Source: Actinomycetota bacterium
GTDB lineage: Bacteria > Actinomycetota > Coriobacteriia > Anaerosomatales > Anaerosomataceae
NCBI GenBank assembly: GCA_009668945.1
Contig: SBEH01000007.1
Location: 1-64,000, forward strand
Direction: 5' to 3'
Length of the DNA stretch: 64,000 nucleotides
The notes under the pieces are model-generated. The model did not search any database, was not told the DNA's origin, and saw only the letters and a program-made list of their open reading frames with translations. Of the stretch, positions 11,791 through 27,483 are shown piece after piece (position 1 is the stretch's first letter; every line of letters starts with the position of its first letter). Made by a program: the position numbers and the translations under genes.

Positions 11791-12537
11791 TTGATCATCA
11801 CCAAGTCACCCGCCGAGCTCGAGACCATGCGCGAGGCGGGCCGGATCACCGCCGCGGCCCTGCGCCTCGTGGCGTCGGCGGTCCGACCGGGGGTGACGAC
11901 CGGCGAGCTCGACGCGATAGCCGAAGAGACCATCCGCGCCGCGGGGGCGGCGCCGGCGTTCAAGGGGTACCACGGGTTCCCGGGCACGCTGTGCACCTCT
12001 GTCGACTCGCAGGTCGTGCACGGCATCCCCGGCTCTCGGGCGCTCCGAGAGGGTGAGATCCTCTCGGTCGACTGCGGCGCGATAGTCGACGGCTACTATG
12101 GCGACTCGGCGATGACCTTCCCGGTGGGCACCGTCTCGCAGGAGGCCCGCAACCTCATGGACGCCACCCGGCGGTCGCTTGAGGCGGGGATTGCGCGCTG
12201 CGTTCCGGGTATGAGACTTCACGACATCTCCGCAGCGGTGCAGGGAGTGGCCGAAGACGCGGGCTTCTCCGTGGTGCGCGAGTACGTGGGTCACGGGATC
12301 GGACGCACGATGCACGAGGACCCGCAGGTGCCGAACTACGGGCAAGCCGGCACGGGCCCGACACTCAAGCCAGGGATGGTGCTCGCCATCGAGCCGATGA
12401 TCAACGCCGGACGCTCTGATGTGCGGTCTTTGGACGATGGCTGGACGGTCGTGACGGCCGATGGCAGCCTGTCGGCGCACTTCGAGCACACGGTGGCCAT
12501 CACCGAGTCCGGCCCGATGGTTCTCACGCTGGAGTAG
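11791..12537 (+). CDS. map: Methionine aminopeptidase, type I
   Basis: Removes the initiator Met from new proteins. The metal ligands are visible: Asp pair in [16 protein letters not shown], His in [11 protein letters not shown], Glu in AIEPMI and Glu in FEHTVAITE; the substrate His is in QVVHGIPG. The start is the TTG at 11791 ([17 protein letters not shown]), 7 nt after the adk stop, because the homologous N-terminus begins there. The SD is weak, so re-use of adk ribosomes is likely. 248 aa. Confidence 0.93.
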
Positions 12538-12564
12538 GCGGGCGCCGGAGAAGCGTGTTTCTGC

Positions 12565-12593
12565 TGGACGCGAGCATGAGTATTGGATATACT
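12565..12593 (+). promoter_or_regulatory. Sigma-70-type promoter before infA
   Basis: TGGACG (12565-12570) and TATACT (12588-12593) are separated by 17 nt and sit 43 nt before the infA start. This would add a second transcript start for infA-rpmJ-rpsM-rpsK-rpsD-rpoA-rplQ. It is predicted from sequence only. Confidence 0.6.
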
Positions 12594-12635
12594 GCTGTTT
12601 TGCGACTTCACAGGCTCTTGAAGGGAATCGGCTAC

Positions 12636-12857
12636 TTGGCCAAGCGCGACGACGCCATCGAGATGGAAGGCACGGTTCTCGAGGCACTGCCCAATGCGAT
12701 GTTCCGCGTGGAGCTGGACAACGGGCACAAGATGCTGGCGCACATCTCGGGCAAGATGCGGATGCACTACATCCGGATCCTGCCGGGGGACAAGGTAGTC
12801 GTCGAGCTTTCCCCGTACGACCTCTCCAGGGGCCGTATCACGTATCGCTTCAAGTAG
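12636..12857 (+). CDS. infA: Translation initiation factor IF-1
   Basis: IF-1 occupies the ribosomal A site during initiation. The OB-fold sequence [18 protein letters not shown] ... [19 protein letters not shown] is nearly invariant. The TTG at 12636 (73 aa) matches the usual N-terminus; AAGGGA lies 9 nt upstream, and longer in-frame starts overlap the promoter. A TTG start on IF-1 itself, a start-codon fidelity factor, is curious. Confidence 0.95.
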
Positions 12858-12863
12858 TCGGAG

Positions 12864-12898
12864 CACGGCAGGGCGTCATGGAGACACCCGGAGCCGTG
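12864..12898 (+). other. Hairpin in the infA-rpmJ spacer
   Basis: CACGGC (12864-12869) pairs with GCCGTG (12893-12898); inside, GGGcGTC (12871-12877) pairs with GACaCCC (12883-12889) across one mismatch. It starts 7 nt after the infA stop. The rest of the 123-nt spacer shows no ORF. Confidence 0.5.
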
Positions 12899-12980
12899 TT
12901 AGCACTGTCTGTACGAAAGAACCCGCCTGCGGCTGGGCGATGAGATAGACGCTCGGAACGAGACTTGAGAAGGACCACAG

Positions 12981-13094
12981 ATGAAAGTCAGACCTTCAGT
13001 CAAGAAGATGTGCGAGAAGTGCAAGGTCATCCGCCGCCACGGCCGGGTACTCGTGATCTGCGAGAACCCGCGCCACAAGCAGCGGCAGGGCTAG
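12981..13094 (+). CDS. rpmJ: 50S ribosomal protein L36, zinc-binding type
   Basis: A 37-aa protein starting [20 protein letters not shown], the L36 signature. Zinc ligands Cys11, Cys14, Cys27 and His32 are all present, so this is the zinc-containing form. It stabilises 23S rRNA near the peptidyl transferase centre. It lies in its normal place between infA and rpsM, 19 nt before the rpsM start. Confidence 0.97.
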
Positions 13095-13113
13095 GACCAG
13101 GAGGGAGCGGGCT

Positions 13114-13488
13114 TTGGCACGCATTTCGGGTGTCGACCTTCCGCGCGAGAAGCGCGTGGAGATCGGCCTGACATACATCTTCGGCATCGGCCTCACTACA
13201 TCCCAGCAGATCCTCCGCGAGACGGGCATCAACCCGGATACGCGCGTCCGGAACCTCACCGAGGAAGAGGTCGTGCGTCTTCGCGAGTACATCGACCGGA
13301 ACCTCAAGGTCGAGGGTGATCTGCGCCGTGAGGTCAGCCAGAACATCAAGCGCCTGATGGAGATCGGCTGCTACCGCGGCCTCCGCCATCGCAAGGGCCT
13401 GCCGGTTCGAGGGCAGCGGACGCACACCAACGCGCGCACCCGCAAGGGCCCGCGCCGCCAGATCGGCGCGAAGAAGAAGGGCAAGTAA
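13114..13488 (+). CDS. rpsM: 30S ribosomal protein S13
   Basis: S13 forms the inter-subunit bridge in the 30S head and touches P-site t[23 protein letters not shown] begins the protein and the C-terminal [20 protein letters not shown] is diagnostic. Length is 124 aa. The start is TTG, preceded by AGGAGGGAG (13099-13107). rpsK follows after 3 nt. Confidence 0.97.
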
Positions 13489-20253: not shown

Positions 20254-21588
20254 ATGGGCAGGCTCTTCGGCACAGACGGCGTGCGCGGTATCGCGAACAG
20301 CGAACTGACGCCCGAGATGGCGTTCAAGCTCGGTGAGGCCGCCGGGCACTTCCTTGGGCAGAAGAGCCGGGGACGAATCGTCGTCGGGATGGACACCAGG
20401 CTCTCGGGCGACATGCTCGAGGCCTCGCTTGTTGCGGGCGTCTGCTCGACCGGGGTGACTGCATTGCGTGCCGGCGTGGTTCCGACGCCCGCGGTTGCCT
20501 TCCTCACCAAGGACGTGCGGGCGGATGGCGGCGTGGTGATCTCGGCATCGCACAACCCCGCCGAGTACAACGGCATCAAGTTCTTCGACCGCGACGGCTT
20601 CAAGCTTCCGGACGAGATCGAGGCCGAGATCGAGGAGTTCCTGGTTGCCGAGCGCGACTGGGAGCGGCCCGTCGGAGCCGGCGTCGGGCGGGCGGAGTGC
20701 CTCGCTGACGGCGCGGATCGCTACATCGCCCATGCCGTGTCCACAGTCCCCGGTCGCCTCGACGGGCTGAGGATCGCCATGGACTGCGGTCATGGCGCGG
20801 CAGCCGTGACCTCGCCAGCAGCGTTCGCGGCACTCGGGGCCGAAGTGACGGCCATCAACTGCGACTGGGACGGCACCGACATCAACCGCGGGTGCGGCTC
20901 AACGCACATGGATGTAATCGCCAGCATGGTGCGTGACGGGCAGTACGACCTCGGCATATCGCACGACGGTGACGCCGATCGGGTGCTGGCTGTCGACGAG
21001 CATGGATCTGTGATCGACGGCGACGCGATCATGACGATCTGCGCGATCGATCTGCTCGAGCGCCGTGCGCTGCCAGGCAAGACCGTAGTCACAACAGTCA
21101 TGAGCAACCTCGGCTTCGAGAAGGTGCTGCACGAGCGCGGCATATCGGTCGTCAAGACCCGCGTGGGCGATCGCTACGTGCTCGATCAGATGCGCACCTC
21201 CGGTGCGGTATTCGGCGGAGAACAGTCCGGACACGTGATCTTCCTTGAGCATGCGAGCACCGGAGACGGGCTGATCACGGCGCTTCAGCTCGCGGCGGTG
21301 ATCCGGCGGTCCGGGAAGCGCCTGTCGGAGCTGGCGGGCGTGATGACCCACTACCCGCAGGTGCTCTTGAACGTGCCCGTGAACCACCGCGAGCTGTTCT
21401 CCGCGAGCTCTGTCATCGCGCAGGCGGTCCGTGAGGCCGAGGCCGAACTTGCCGAGGACGGCCGCGTCCTTGTCCGCACGTCCGGCACCGAGCCGCTTGT
21501 CCGGGTCATGGTGGAGGCCGCCGAGGAAGCGCGGGCCCGCGAGATCGCCGAGCGGATAGCCGGTGTCGTACGCGGCGAACTCGGGTAG
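20254..21588 (+). CDS. glmM: Phosphoglucosamine mutase
   Basis: Converts glucosamine-6-phosphate to glucosamine-1-phosphate for UDP-GlcNAc and peptidoglycan. The phosphoserine loop SASHNP (Ser99), the metal loop DGDADR and the sugar-phosphate loop RTSGTEPLVRVM are all visible. Length is 444 aa. The ATG at 20254 (MGRLFGTDGVRG) is preceded by AGAGAGGGG. glmS, which makes its substrate, is the next gene, behind a ribozyme. Confidence 0.96.
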   Translation: MGRLFGTDGVRGIANSELTPEMAFKLGEAAGHFLGQKSRGRIVVGMDTRLSGDMLEASLVAGVCSTGVTALRAGVVPTPAVAFLTKDVRADGGVVISASHNPAEYNGIKFFDRDGFKLPDEIEAEIEEFLVAERDWERPVGAGVGRAECLADGADRYIAHAVSTVPGRLDGLRIAMDCGHGAAAVTSPAAFAALGAEVTAINCDWDGTDINRGCGSTHMDVIASMVRDGQYDLGISHDGDADRVLAVDEHGSVIDGDAIMTICAIDLLERRALPGKTVVTTVMSNLGFEKVLHERGISVVKTRVGDRYVLDQMRTSGAVFGGEQSGHVIFLEHASTGDGLITALQLAAVIRRSGKRLSELAGVMTHYPQVLLNVPVNHRELFSASSVIAQAVREAEAELAEDGRVLVRTSGTEPLVRVMVEAAEEARAREIAERIAGVVRGELG

Positions 21589-21639
21589 CGGGGCGGCAAC
21601 CGTTCGGTGGCACGGCCGGGTCCGGCCCGGGGGCTCTGT

Positions 21640-21645
21640 TAGAAT
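21640..21645 (+). promoter_or_regulatory. -10 element before the glmS leader
   Basis: TAGAAT, a good -10 hexamer, lies about 55 nt before the glmS ribozyme cleavage site. No clear -35 is seen 16-18 nt upstream; that stretch is GC-rich and contains GGCCGG-GT-CCGGCC. It could start a glmS transcript separate from glmM. Confidence 0.4.
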
Positions 21646-21692
21646 GCACCGTGACTGAGATTGGCGCGAAAGGAGCCGCCTCCCGAAGGATG

Positions 21693-21838
21693 AACGCTAG
21701 CGCCAGGCCTGGTGTGAGTGCGCATCAGGTGACGAGGTGAGGACCTATCGAGAGACTCGGCGGATGGTCCTCCGGCCCCTAACCGGGGTCGAAACGGTAC
21801 GCGACAAAGCCCGCGGGCGACCGCGGAGACAAACCGCT
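21693..21838 (+). ncRNA. glmS ribozyme (GlcN6P-activated self-cleaving riboswitch)
   Basis: The RNA cleaves itself when bound to glucosamine-6-phosphate and so turns glmS down. Core elements appear in order: AGCGCCAG (cleavage between A21699 and G21700), a CCTG/CAGG stem, TGACGAGG (21730-21737), a P3 helix GAGGACC/GGTCCTC enclosing TATCGA and TCGGCGGAT, CCTCCGG, a P4-like hairpin CGGCCCC/GGGGTCG, then two ACAAA segments in the downstream pseudoknot region. It lies 117 nt before the glmS ATG. Outer limits are approximate. Confidence 0.94.
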
Positions 21839-21934
21839 GCCGGACCGGTCATCGAACATGCTGCGGCACGCCGTGCCCCCGCGCGGCACTCGCGATCCGA
21901 GGATGCGCACACCGCAGCCACCACCTTTCACCTC

Positions 21935-21949
21935 CTCCCGAAAGGGGAG
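21935..21949 (+). promoter_or_regulatory. Hairpin holding the glmS ribosome binding site
   Basis: CTCCC (21935-21939) can pair with GGGAG (21945-21949), loop GAAAG. The 3' strand is the SD (AAAGGGGAG), which ends 5 nt before the ATG. This could tune translation after ribozyme cleavage. It is a small stem, and its role is inferred. Confidence 0.45.
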
Positions 21950-21954
21950 CATCC

Positions 21955-23781
<1,827 letters not shown>

Positions 23782-23801
23782 CGGTGGCCGGAGGACAGCA
23801 C

Positions 23802-24284
23802 ATGATCACCGGACTCGGCGTGGACATCGTCGAGATCGAACGCATGCGCGAAGCGCTCGCCCGGCGGCCGCGCCTGAAGGAGCGCCTCTTCTCTGAGGAG
23901 GAGCGGGCCTACTGTGAGAGCCGCAACATGCCCGAGATCCACTACGCGATGCGCTTCGCCGCCAAAGAGGCGGTGCTCAAGGCGCTCGGAACCGGATTCT
24001 CAGGCATGCGTTTCCGCGACGTAGAAGTGATGAGGGATGAGCGCGGCAGGCCCGTACCCAGGCTCTCCGGGCGTGCCGCCGAGGTCGCTGACGCCGCGGG
24101 CGTCGTGGAGATGCATCTCTCGCTCTCGTTCACCCACACGAACGCCGTCGCCTCGGCCGTGGCGATCACCGAGCAGATGCGTCCGCGCAAAGAGCCCGAG
24201 CTGGACACTCCTCAGGGGCGCCTGAGCGCATCGTTCAAGAGTGCGAAGTCGCTGCTGGACGAGGTGGGGAACGAAGAGTCATAG
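23802..24284 (+). CDS. acpS: Holo-[acyl-carrier-protein] synthase
   Basis: Transfers the 4'-phosphopantetheine arm of CoA to acyl carrier protein. The N-terminal GLGVDIVEIERM (metal Asp) and FAAKEAVLKALGTGF (Glu) motifs are intact. The ATG at 23802 follows CCGGAGGAC. At 160 aa it is about 35 residues longer than usual; the charged C-terminal extension (from about residue 125) has no recognised domain. It follows glmS after 20 nt. Confidence 0.93.
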   Translation: MITGLGVDIVEIERMREALARRPRLKERLFSEEERAYCESRNMPEIHYAMRFAAKEAVLKALGTGFSGMRFRDVEVMRDERGRPVPRLSGRAAEVADAAGVVEMHLSLSFTHTNAVASAVAITEQMRPRKEPELDTPQGRLSASFKSAKSLLDEVGNEES

Positions 24285-24334
24285 CGTCTGGTTGTCCGCC
24301 GCCGTGTTGAGCTGGCGCGCCCGAGGGGGTCGGA

Positions 24335-25846
24335 ATGCACTACGCGTTCACCGCCGAGCAGATGCGTGCGATCGAGGATCGCGCTGATGCGGACGGAGTC
24401 GCCACCGTCGCCGAACTGATGCGCCGAGCAGGAGCGACGCTTGCCGCTGAGGTCTCGCGACGCGTGCCGTCCGGACCTGTCGTTGCCGTGTGTGGAACGG
24501 GCAACAATGGCGGTGACGGTTGGGTGGCGGCGAAGCTCCTCCACGAAGCGGGACGAGATGTCCGGGTGGTTGCACTTGCGGCCCCGGGCGACCTCTCGGG
24601 TTCTGCCGCTGATGCCGCGGTCGAGGCCACCCGTGCGGGCGTGCCGTTCGACCTCTGCGGACAACACCGTCCGCTCGAGCGTACGGCTGTGGTGATCGAT
24701 GCGCTCTTCGGCTTCGGCCTGCGCGGAGCCATGCGAGAACCGGCCGCGCGGCTCGTTCCCGAGATCGCGCTATGCGGAGCTGCGGTGATCGCGGCCGACG
24801 TGCCGTCAGGTGTTGATGCGGACACCGGGGCGGTCACCGGTGCGGCGGTGAGTGCCGACGTGACGGTCACATTCACCGCGCGGAAGCCCGGACTCCTGAT
24901 ATACCCGGGTGCATCGTTCGCGGGCGAGGTGGTGGTCGCCGACATCGGCGTCCCGAAGGAGATGCTGAGCGCGCCGGGTGCGCTGGAGCTTCCCGGGGTG
25001 GCCGATGTGTCGAGTCTTCTGCCCGTGGCGCCGCCTGACGCGCACAAGGGCTCGCGGGGCAGGGTGGCGATCGTCGCCGGTTCGCGCGCGTACGCGGGGG
25101 CAGCGGTGCTCGCAGCGCAAGGCGCGCTTCGAATGGGGGCAGGCTACGTGTACGCGGTCGTGCCCGAGGTGATAGGAGATGTCATTCGCGCCTCCCTGCC
25201 GGGAGCGATCGTTCGGGCTGTACCGGCGGCCGCGGACGGCACTGTGGCCAGGCTCGATGCCGTCCTCTCCTCGGTAGCTGATGCCGATGCTGTCGTCGTC
25301 GGCCCGGGGCTCACGACCGCTCCGGGCGTCGGAGAGGTCGTGCACGCGCTCCTAACGAACGTGTCCGTGCCGCTCGTGCTGGATGCGGATGCGCTCAACG
25401 CGCTCGCCGGTGACATGGCTGCGATCGACTCGCGGACCGCGCCACTAGTGCTGACGCCCCATCCGGGGGAGGCGTCCCGGCTGCTCGGCATATCCGCTGA
25501 AGGGGTGCAGGCCGATCGTGTCGGCGCGGCCCTGGCACTGTCGCGGGGGCATCATGTGTGCCTTCTCAAGGGCGCGCGCACAGTGATCGCAGGCGCAGGG
25601 CGCAGCGCGCTGATACTCACCGGGAACGCAGGGCTCGCACGCGCGGGCTCGGGCGACGTGCTAGCAGGCATGGCGGGCACGCTACTCGCCCAGGGAGTCG
25701 CGCCGTTCGACGCGGCGGTGCTTTCGGCGCACCTGCACGGCCGCGCCGCAGAGTACGGGACTGCAGCTCTCACCGAGACATGCTTCACATCCGCTGACAT
25801 CGTCACGTTCCTGCCGGAAGCTGTGCGCGAGCTGACGGGCGGGTAG
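24335..25846 (+). CDS. nnr: Bifunctional NAD(P)HX epimerase / ADP-dependent NAD(P)HX dehydratase
   Basis: Repairs hydrated NADH and NADPH. The N-terminal YjeF domain (about 1-210) carries GTGNNGGDGWVAA and epimerises the hydrate. The C-terminal ribokinase-like dehydratase (about 225-503) shows HKGSRGRVAIVAGS and the nucleotide loop GNAGLARAGSGDVLAGM. Both halves look intact in 503 aa, as in the E. coli fusion. It is the second gene of an acpS-nnr-CBS-alr series, an order common in Gram-positives. Confidence 0.94.
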   Translation: MHYAFTAEQMRAIEDRADADGVATVAELMRRAGATLAAEVSRRVPSGPVVAVCGTGNNGGDGWVAAKLLHEAGRDVRVVALAAPGDLSGSAADAAVEATRAGVPFDLCGQHRPLERTAVVIDALFGFGLRGAMREPAARLVPEIALCGAAVIAADVPSGVDADTGAVTGAAVSADVTVTFTARKPGLLIYPGASFAGEVVVADIGVPKEMLSAPGALELPGVADVSSLLPVAPPDAHKGSRGRVAIVAGSRAYAGAAVLAAQGALRMGAGYVYAVVPEVIGDVIRASLPGAIVRAVPAAADGTVARLDAVLSSVADADAVVVGPGLTTAPGVGEVVHALLTNVSVPLVLDADALNALAGDMAAIDSRTAPLVLTPHPGEASRLLGISAEGVQADRVGAALALSRGHHVCLLKGARTVIAGAGRSALILTGNAGLARAGSGDVLAGMAGTLLAQGVAPFDAAVLSAHLHGRAAEYGTAALTETCFTSADIVTFLPEAVRELTGG

Positions 25847-25896
25847 AATCATCTCCGAGCGGCCGACTCGCGACCGCCGAGGACCACGGAGGTACC

Positions 25897-26358
25897 ATGG
25901 CCGATCTCACCGCACGCGACATCATGACGCCCGACCCCATCACCGTCACGGGCGGGCTCTCGGTGACCGACGCCGCACGGCTGATGGTCGAGCACAAGGT
26001 CGGCGCGCTGCCGGTCCTCGAAGGCGACACGATGGTCGGGCTCGTGACCGAGGACGACTTGATCATGCAGGACGTGAAGGTCGAGTTCCCGACGTACCTG
26101 CACCTTCTGGACGGGTTCATCATGTATCCCCCGGCTACGGCGAAGTTCGAGTCGGAGCTGAAGAAGGCCGTCGGTGCTACGGTCGCAGACGTCATGACGA
26201 CCGAACCGGTCACGGTAGAGGCGGGCAGCAGCGTGAGCGACGTTGCGACTCTGATGATCGAGCGCGAGGTCGACCGCGTGCCGGTGATGGACGGCGGCAA
26301 GCTTGTGGGGGTCGTCAGCAAGTCCGACATCGTACGCTCGCTGATCGCCGAGGGCTAG
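25897..26358 (+). CDS. Two-CBS-domain protein
   Basis: 153-aa soluble protein made of two CBS domains: TARDIMTPDPITV...ALPVLEGDTMVGLVTEDDL (residues 4-55) and VADVMTTEPVTV...VPVMDGGKLVGVVSKSDI (about 95-148), linked by a 35-residue helical insert. CBS pairs usually bind adenine nucleotides or SAM and regulate a partner; the partner here is not known. GGAGGT precedes the ATG. It lies between nnr and alr; a TAGAAT at 25844-25849 could be a -10. Confidence 0.85.
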   Translation: MADLTARDIMTPDPITVTGGLSVTDAARLMVEHKVGALPVLEGDTMVGLVTEDDLIMQDVKVEFPTYLHLLDGFIMYPPATAKFESELKKAVGATVADVMTTEPVTVEAGSSVSDVATLMIEREVDRVPVMDGGKLVGVVSKSDIVRSLIAEG

Positions 26359-26361
26359 TCC

Positions 26362-27483
26362 ATGGAGTACCGTCGCGGCGCCTGGGCCGACGTCGACCTC
26401 GGGGCGATCGCACGCAACGTGCGTGCTCTCAAGGCTCTGACGCCGCCTGCGACGGCGTTCATGGCGGTAGTGAAGGCCGACGGATACGGCCATGGCGCGC
26501 TGGAAGTGGCGCGGGCCGCGGTCTCGGCCGGTGCGGACCGGCTCGGCGTGGCTACTCTGGAGGAGGCCATCGCGCTGCGGGAAGCGGGCGTGAGGGCGCC
26601 GCTGCACGTACTCGCCGAGGTTCCCGCGGATGGCGCGCCCCTGGTAGTCGAGCATGGCATCATCGCAACGGTGGCCACCCGCGAGGTCGCCCTGGCTCTC
26701 AGCCGCGCCGCAACGGACGCGCAGCGCGCGGCGGTCGGTCATCTCAAGGTCGACACCGGGATGAACCGTATCGGCGTCCGCGCGGAGGAGGCGGGCGAGT
26801 TCGGAGCCTGGGTCGCCAACCTGCCAGGTGTCGAACTCGAGGGCGTGTTCACCCACTTTGCGACCGCCGACACGCCCGGTGACTGGGAGTTCGACCGGCA
26901 GGTAGAACGCTTCCGCGTGGCGCTCGAGTCGCTGCGAACCGAGGGCGTCCGACCGCGACTGGCGCACACGGCCAACAGCGCTGCGACGATCCTGCACCCG
27001 CAGACGCATCTCGACATGGTCCGTTGCGGGATCTCGGTCTACGGTCTCCATCCTTCCGAAGCGACCCGGGGCAAGATCGCTCTCGATCCGGCGATGAGCG
27101 TCAAGGCCAGCCTTTCGTTCGTGAAACGGGTAGGTCTTGGCGACGGTGTCAGCTACGGCCTCACATGGCACGCCGGGGGCCCCGCGACGATCGCCACGCT
27201 GCCCCTCGGTTACGCAGACGGGGTGCACCGGGTCCTGTCCGGCCGGATGAGCGTCCTTATAGGCGGACGCCGATGTGTGCAAGTGGGCCGGATCTGCATG
27301 GACCAGCTCATGGTCGAGGTCCCTCCCGGGGTGGATGCGCACGCTGGCGACGAGGCGGTTCTCGTCGGGACGCAGGGTACCGAGTGCATCGGAATGGACG
27401 AGGTTGCCGATCTCGCCGGCACGATCAACTACGAGCTCGCATGCGGCTTCGCGTTGCGCCTGGAGCGCCGCTACTCCCGCTAG
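26362..27483 (+). CDS. alr: Alanine racemase
   Basis: PLP enzyme that makes D-alanine for peptidoglycan. The PLP lysine Lys38 is in MAVVKADGYGHGA and the catalytic Tyr265 in GDGVSYGLTW, the same position as in the well-studied Geobacillus enzyme. Length is 373 aa. It starts 3 nt after the CBS gene. A 263-nt gap follows before the ATPase operon. Confidence 0.95.
   Translation: MEYRRGAWADVDLGAIARNVRALKALTPPATAFMAVVKADGYGHGALEVARAAVSAGADRLGVATLEEAIALREAGVRAPLHVLAEVPADGAPLVVEHGIIATVATREVALALSRAATDAQRAAVGHLKVDTGMNRIGVRAEEAGEFGAWVANLPGVELEGVFTHFATADTPGDWEFDRQVERFRVALESLRTEGVRPRLAHTANSAATILHPQTHLDMVRCGISVYGLHPSEATRGKIALDPAMSVKASLSFVKRVGLGDGVSYGLTWHAGGPATIATLPLGYADGVHRVLSGRMSVLIGGRRCVQVGRICMDQLMVEVPPGVDAHAGDEAVLVGTQGTECIGMDEVADLAGTINYELACGFALRLERRYSR

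Follow-up and report, generated by a model that had tools for sequence, protein, structure and literature searches.

The glmS ribozyme is a well-known type of self-cutting RNA switch, which senses the product of GlmS. The closest described systems to the element analyzed here are the members of this class (Rfam family RF00234) from Bacillus subtilis, Bacillus anthracis and Thermoanaerobacter tengcongensis. The ribozyme found in the window, i.e. the whole 64-kb stretch of DNA that was analyzed, has the same core sequence, the same P1–P2.1–P2.2 double pseudoknot and the same P3/P3.1 arrangement as these ribozymes. It also shares with the Bacillus and Thermoanaerobacter elements a P4 helix with an internal loop (IL4) and a GNRA loop, the predicted A/G cut and the position in the glmS leader, and its helices are neither added nor missing. 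It differs from them in the higher G+C content of its variable stems (66% overall, equal to that of the window), in a bulged C in P4, in a C replacing a G at position 21834, and in its actinobacterial host. McCown et al. reportedly described, in 2011, structural variants from Deinococcus-Thermus with extra core stems; the window ribozyme has no such stems.

The RF00234 covariance model matches positions 21688–21852 of the forward strand, on which its parts and the neighbouring glmM, glmS and acpS genes are also located, with a score of 83.4 bits (E-value 1.1e-17; the gathering score is 37 bits). The match is full length (model positions 1–167 of 167). The glmS ribozyme stands alone in the window, where no other Rfam family exceeds its cut-off, and the 1.92 Mb genome (99% complete) contains one copy of it. 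An order-specific model, R1, which was trained on 31 rows including the window's own ribozyme, gives it 147 bits. The ribozyme lies in the 5′ leader of glmS, with its 3′ end 102 nt before the glmS start. A first-pass annotation had read the element at 21693–21838 and named a covariance search with the Rfam model as its check; the significant match bears out the element, but its end had been placed about 10 nt too early, cutting off the base of P4 and P3.1, because the 3′ strand of P4 runs to 21842 and the 3′ strand of P3.1 occupies 21846–21849.

All five core blocks listed in that annotation are present in the order and at the places given: AGCGCCAG (21699–21706), TGACGAGG (21730–21737), TATCGA (21746–21751), CGGCGGAT (21758–21765) and CCTCCGG (21769–21775). 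In RNA terms, the catalytic core consists of A/GCGCC (the slash marks the cut), GACGAGG, AUCGA and UCGGCGGAUG, all of which are there, in columns that are invariant or nearly so. The RF00234 alignment places the predicted cleavage site between A(-1) at 21699 and G(+1) at 21700 (model positions 12 and 13, respectively), in agreement with the cut proposed earlier, and both A12 and G13 are invariant in the 31 sequences of the order. The published active-site residues comprise, in B. subtilis numbering, A-1/G1, C2, the A37–G42 strand, C54/G55/A56 and G67 (PMC11602151, PMC7125110). Carried onto the window by eye via the Rfam alignment, all of these positions are conserved in the window ribozyme and invariant across the 31 order sequences. 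The window ribozyme departs slightly from the order consensus: position -2 is a U, P4 contains one additional, bulged C (21800), and G is replaced by C at 21834, which is the end of the 3′ strand of IL4. All three lie outside the catalytic residues, and the last two are also found, by eye, in another genome of the same genus (G001). An open reading frame that begins at 21690 within the ribozyme (MNASARPGVSAHQVTR) was dismissed as a chance occurrence, its ATG being unconserved in the alignment.

The secondary structure was evaluated in an alignment, A1, of 31 ribozyme sequences from the same order as the window. Pairing is retained in 97.5% of its cells, with two-sided changes in 22 of the 42 pairs. 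There are 136 cells with two-sided changes compared to a mean of 37.8 in shuffled alignments, and none of 500 shuffles reached the observed number. When the partners are slid by one to three columns, pairing falls to 28–42%. Among the individual helices, the P1 hairpin (21707–21730) has two-sided changes in four of its seven modelled pairs, P2 (21739–21744 with 21767–21772) is paired in 100% of cells with three of six pairs changing on both sides, and the P3 hairpin (21773–21778/21786–21791) is paired in 98.4% of cells, again with three of six such pairs. The P3.1 pseudoknot, formed by loop L3 (21782–21785) and the 3′ strand at 21846–21849, is paired in 90.3% of cells, and three of its four pairs change on both sides. 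P4 (21795–21803/21835–21842) carries the bulged C at 21800 and the internal loop IL4 (ACAAA/ACAAA), and ends in a distal 6-bp stem (21811–21816/21821–21826) capped by the GNRA loop GCGA at 21817–21820. The P3 and P4 stems, which the first-pass annotation had called complementary, both form and show two-sided changes. Judged from the aligned sequences, P1, P2, P3, P3.1 and P4 are thus backed by two-sided covariation, which supports these predicted helices.

The double pseudoknot P2.1/P2.2 is complementary in 31 of 31 sequences. P2.2 (21701–21704 with 21759–21762) forms four of four pairs, and these, like the P2.1 pairs 21733–21750 and 21734–21749 and the core strands ACGAGG (21732–21737) and CGA (21749–21751), are invariant in the 31 sequences. 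Since the P2.1/P2.2 pairs never vary, covariation says nothing on them. The same lack of covariation in P2.1/P2.2 was remarked upon for the class overall (PMC2258182).

The evidence obtained directly for the window ribozyme comprises its sequence, its structure with covariation, its gene context, a conserved promoter element and an RNase J gene, and the element is almost certainly a functional, canonical glmS ribozyme that controls glmS. The alternative that fares best, that of a decayed ribozyme in which the fold is kept, useful cleavage is gone and the level of glmS is set by the promoter, appears very improbable. Some relatives have no element at all, so selection can relax; the score of 83.4 bits belongs to the lower part of the range in the order (62.8–111.5 bits); and small changes in IL4 and P4 have occurred in the window's genus. 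However, the catalytic-core columns are all retained and every helix is intact, and the ribozymes of two other genomes of the genus are alike, with 84.3 and 83.0 bits, as would be expected for a maintained element. A chance or convergent resemblance of an unrelated GC-rich leader to the model can be practically discarded, given the E-value of 1.1e-17, the full-length match, the place before glmS, the covariation in 31 relatives and the fact that the best weak match elsewhere (locus L161) reaches just 17.9 bits and misses the core blocks.

The gene context is also that described in the first-pass annotation. The phosphoglucosamine mutase gene glmM (20254–21588; TIGR01455, 562 bits, cut-off 448) precedes the ribozyme, and the regulated gene glmS (21955–23781; TIGR01135, 831 bits, cut-off 418), with its Shine-Dalgarno sequence GGGGAG at 21944–21949, follows it. 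A scripted search found the ribozyme upstream of glmS in 30 of 31 loci of the order and in 12 of 12 loci of the phylum. In the exceptional locus (L012), extending the region examined (L166) reveals glmS as well. The idea that a regulatory hairpin covers the Shine-Dalgarno sequence of glmS was rejected, as the 3′ part of the leader folds no better than its shuffles (z = -0.73).

An extended -10 promoter element, TGTTAGAAT, is located at 21637–21645, 63 nt before the predicted cut. Its consensus, TGNTANNNT, recurs 58–93 nt upstream of the cleavage site in 29 of the 31 ribozyme leaders of the order, compared to a mean of 1.5 and a maximum of 6 in shuffled sequences. A default sigma-70 scan returned no promoter; the extended -10 emerged from the comparison of leaders. 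It has no evident -35 box and may be a usual promoter form in this order. Transcription of glmS would start at approximately 21652. As the conserved extended -10 lies between glmM and glmS, the latter most likely has its own start after glmM, and, given such a separate start, glmM is most likely outside of ribozyme control.

This position of the promoter upholds one half of the earlier proposal that feedback acts on the first enzyme of the pathway only, namely the exclusion of glmM. The word "only" is uncertain because acpS (23802–24284; above the cut-offs of both NF000832 and TIGR00516) starts 20 nt downstream of the glmS stop codon in a tight run of genes, and no extended -10 is found before it in 23601–23801. 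Hence, acpS and further downstream genes may share the cleaved glmS transcript. The closely spaced genes behind glmS (23781–27483 of the window) are acpS, nnrD, a CBS-domain gene and alr. If the string from glmS to alr is co-transcribed, cleavage could also touch cell-wall genes such as alr.

By analogy with the known class, the ribozyme would function as follows. The extended -10 promoter at 21637–21645 would drive glmS, and the leader would fold into the double-pseudoknot core with P3 and P4. GlcN6P, the product of GlmS, would then enter a preformed pocket and serve as the cofactor when the RNA is cut between A21699 and G21700. The mRNA on the 3′ side of the cut would be left with a 5′-hydroxyl end and would be degraded in the 5′ to 3′ direction by RNase J, such that plentiful GlcN6P would result in less GlmS. 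The GlcN6P dependence, the chemistry and the RNase J decay are all carried over here from the known class. In the Bacillus model, RNase J is required for the decay of the 5′-OH fragment (PMC7125110, PMC11476745). The genome of the window encodes an RNase J-type protein (G000:C7:5124-6761, 565 bits, cut-off 400). The family is widespread, with 9 of 14 control genomes over the cut-off, and its presence therefore permits this mechanism and does not single it out.

The first-pass annotation noted that the class is best known from Firmicutes and that this element may be a high-GC variant; a reading as a high-GC variant in an unexpected host is weak. Within the order, the ribozyme occurs in 43 of 61 genomes, a set consisting of the window's genome and 60 relatives, as it does in 55 of 300 genomes in a sample of the class and 75 of 397 in a sample of the phylum, and the host is therefore not exceptional. 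Two of the 14 control genomes have a match, B. subtilis and Deinobacterium chartae. The nearest named records, metagenome-assembled genomes labelled 'Coriobacteriia bacterium' and 'Actinomycetes bacterium', have GlmS proteins 79–81% identical to that of the window, and both carry the ribozyme. The proposed high-GC variant has the standard architecture and the G+C content of its surroundings (66.1% vs 65.9% for the window), and the ribozymes of its relatives span 56 to 71%. Other Actinomycetota ribozymes (L132–L143, no more than about 200 nt away from the start of glmS), L088 and that of D. chartae are, like the window's, full-length RF00234 matches; on the order-specific model they score 91–108 bits vs 127–169 bits for members of the order. 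The window ribozyme is thus an ordinary member of its class in a lineage where the class is common, and such ribozymes routinely take part in the control of glmS throughout this actinobacterial order. It is not mentioned for this lineage in the open-access papers searched; the main papers on its distribution fall outside that search, and the element is not presented as a first discovery.

The ribozyme is not essential to the lineage, because relatives live without it. The 18 relatives that lack a match fall into four groups, and reading all of them as losses was rejected, since just seven keep a native glmS without the ribozyme. In four assemblies (G003, G026, G029, G031), no glmS is seen: there is either no match at all or just weak ones to the glutaminase half (about 30% identity). 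A fifth assembly (G025) has a glmS fragment only. The seven genomes with a native glmS (72–77% identical) are G006 (locus L163), G016 (L181), G020 (L182), G023 (L118), G030 (L164), G032 (L165) and G051 (L120), and neither a permissive Rfam search nor the order-specific model finds a ribozyme in them. Inspected by eye, the leaders of G006, G016, G020, G030 and G032 keep the TGSTATAAT promoter. In G006, G016 and G020, glmM is directly upstream of glmS; G030 and G032 have other sequence between the two genes, and G051 carries glmM on a different contig. Five of these seven genomes are included in the tree described below, where ribozyme absence with retention of native glmS takes three changes.

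In the remaining six genomes, an inverted, ribozyme-free cassette located between rpsI and acpS replaces the glmM–ribozyme–glmS segment: G002 (L160, 8225–13856), which belongs to the window's own genus, G012 (L161, 7231–12761), G010 (L162, 8290–13844), G013 (L167), G019 (L183) and G022 (L184). In the three annotated cassettes (G002, G010 and G012), the gene order is a GlmU acetyltransferase-like protein, GlmM′, a NagB-like deaminase and GlmS′. GlmM′ and GlmS′ are present in all six genomes and are 44–51% identical to the native proteins; the flanks remain of the family type (S9 92–95% and AcpS 84–87% identical). The NagB-like protein scores 147 bits against NagB models, below the equivalog cut-off of 237. 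The 17.9-bit match to the order-specific model in L161 (12703–12861) was rejected as a ribozyme remnant, as it lies in the convergent terminator region of rpsI and glmS′ and contains neither GACGAGG nor UCGGCGGAUG.

On the tree, built from ten proteins of the flanks in 28 genomes, the cassette requires four changes, three of which are forced by well-supported branches. The six carriers are polyphyletic, and their grouping into one clade is rejected (p-AU 1.6e-5); G002 is placed inside the window's genus and G013 beside two ribozyme carriers. The simplest reading is whole-segment exchange by recombination in the flanks; a long-standing polymorphism, in which the forms repeatedly replaced each other in either direction, is possible. 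Identities among GlmS′ proteins (82–89%) are similar to those of native GlmS when flank distances are matched, which leaves room for such a polymorphism and does not support the idea that all carriers acquired the cassette in a recent spread. A rather doubtful proposal, offered tentatively, is that the rpsI–acpS site is dimorphic in this family of Coriobacteriia-like bacteria, with the glmM–ribozyme–glmS segment and the inverted cassette repeatedly swapped, and that feedback by RNA on GlcN6P synthesis thereby gives way to an enzyme that removes GlcN6P. It is a guess that the NagB-like deaminase fills the role of the ribozyme. More unusual than the ribozyme itself is that forms with and without it have interchanged at a single site in the chromosome. 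Close relatives display three natural states of one locus, i.e. the ribozyme present, a native glmS that has lost its ribozyme, and the whole segment replaced, and what is gained or lost with the RNA switch can therefore be asked by comparing neighbours. GlmS′ of G002 is split into two adjacent pieces in different frames (11868–13382 and 13387–13710 of L160), which may reflect a frameshift or an assembly error.
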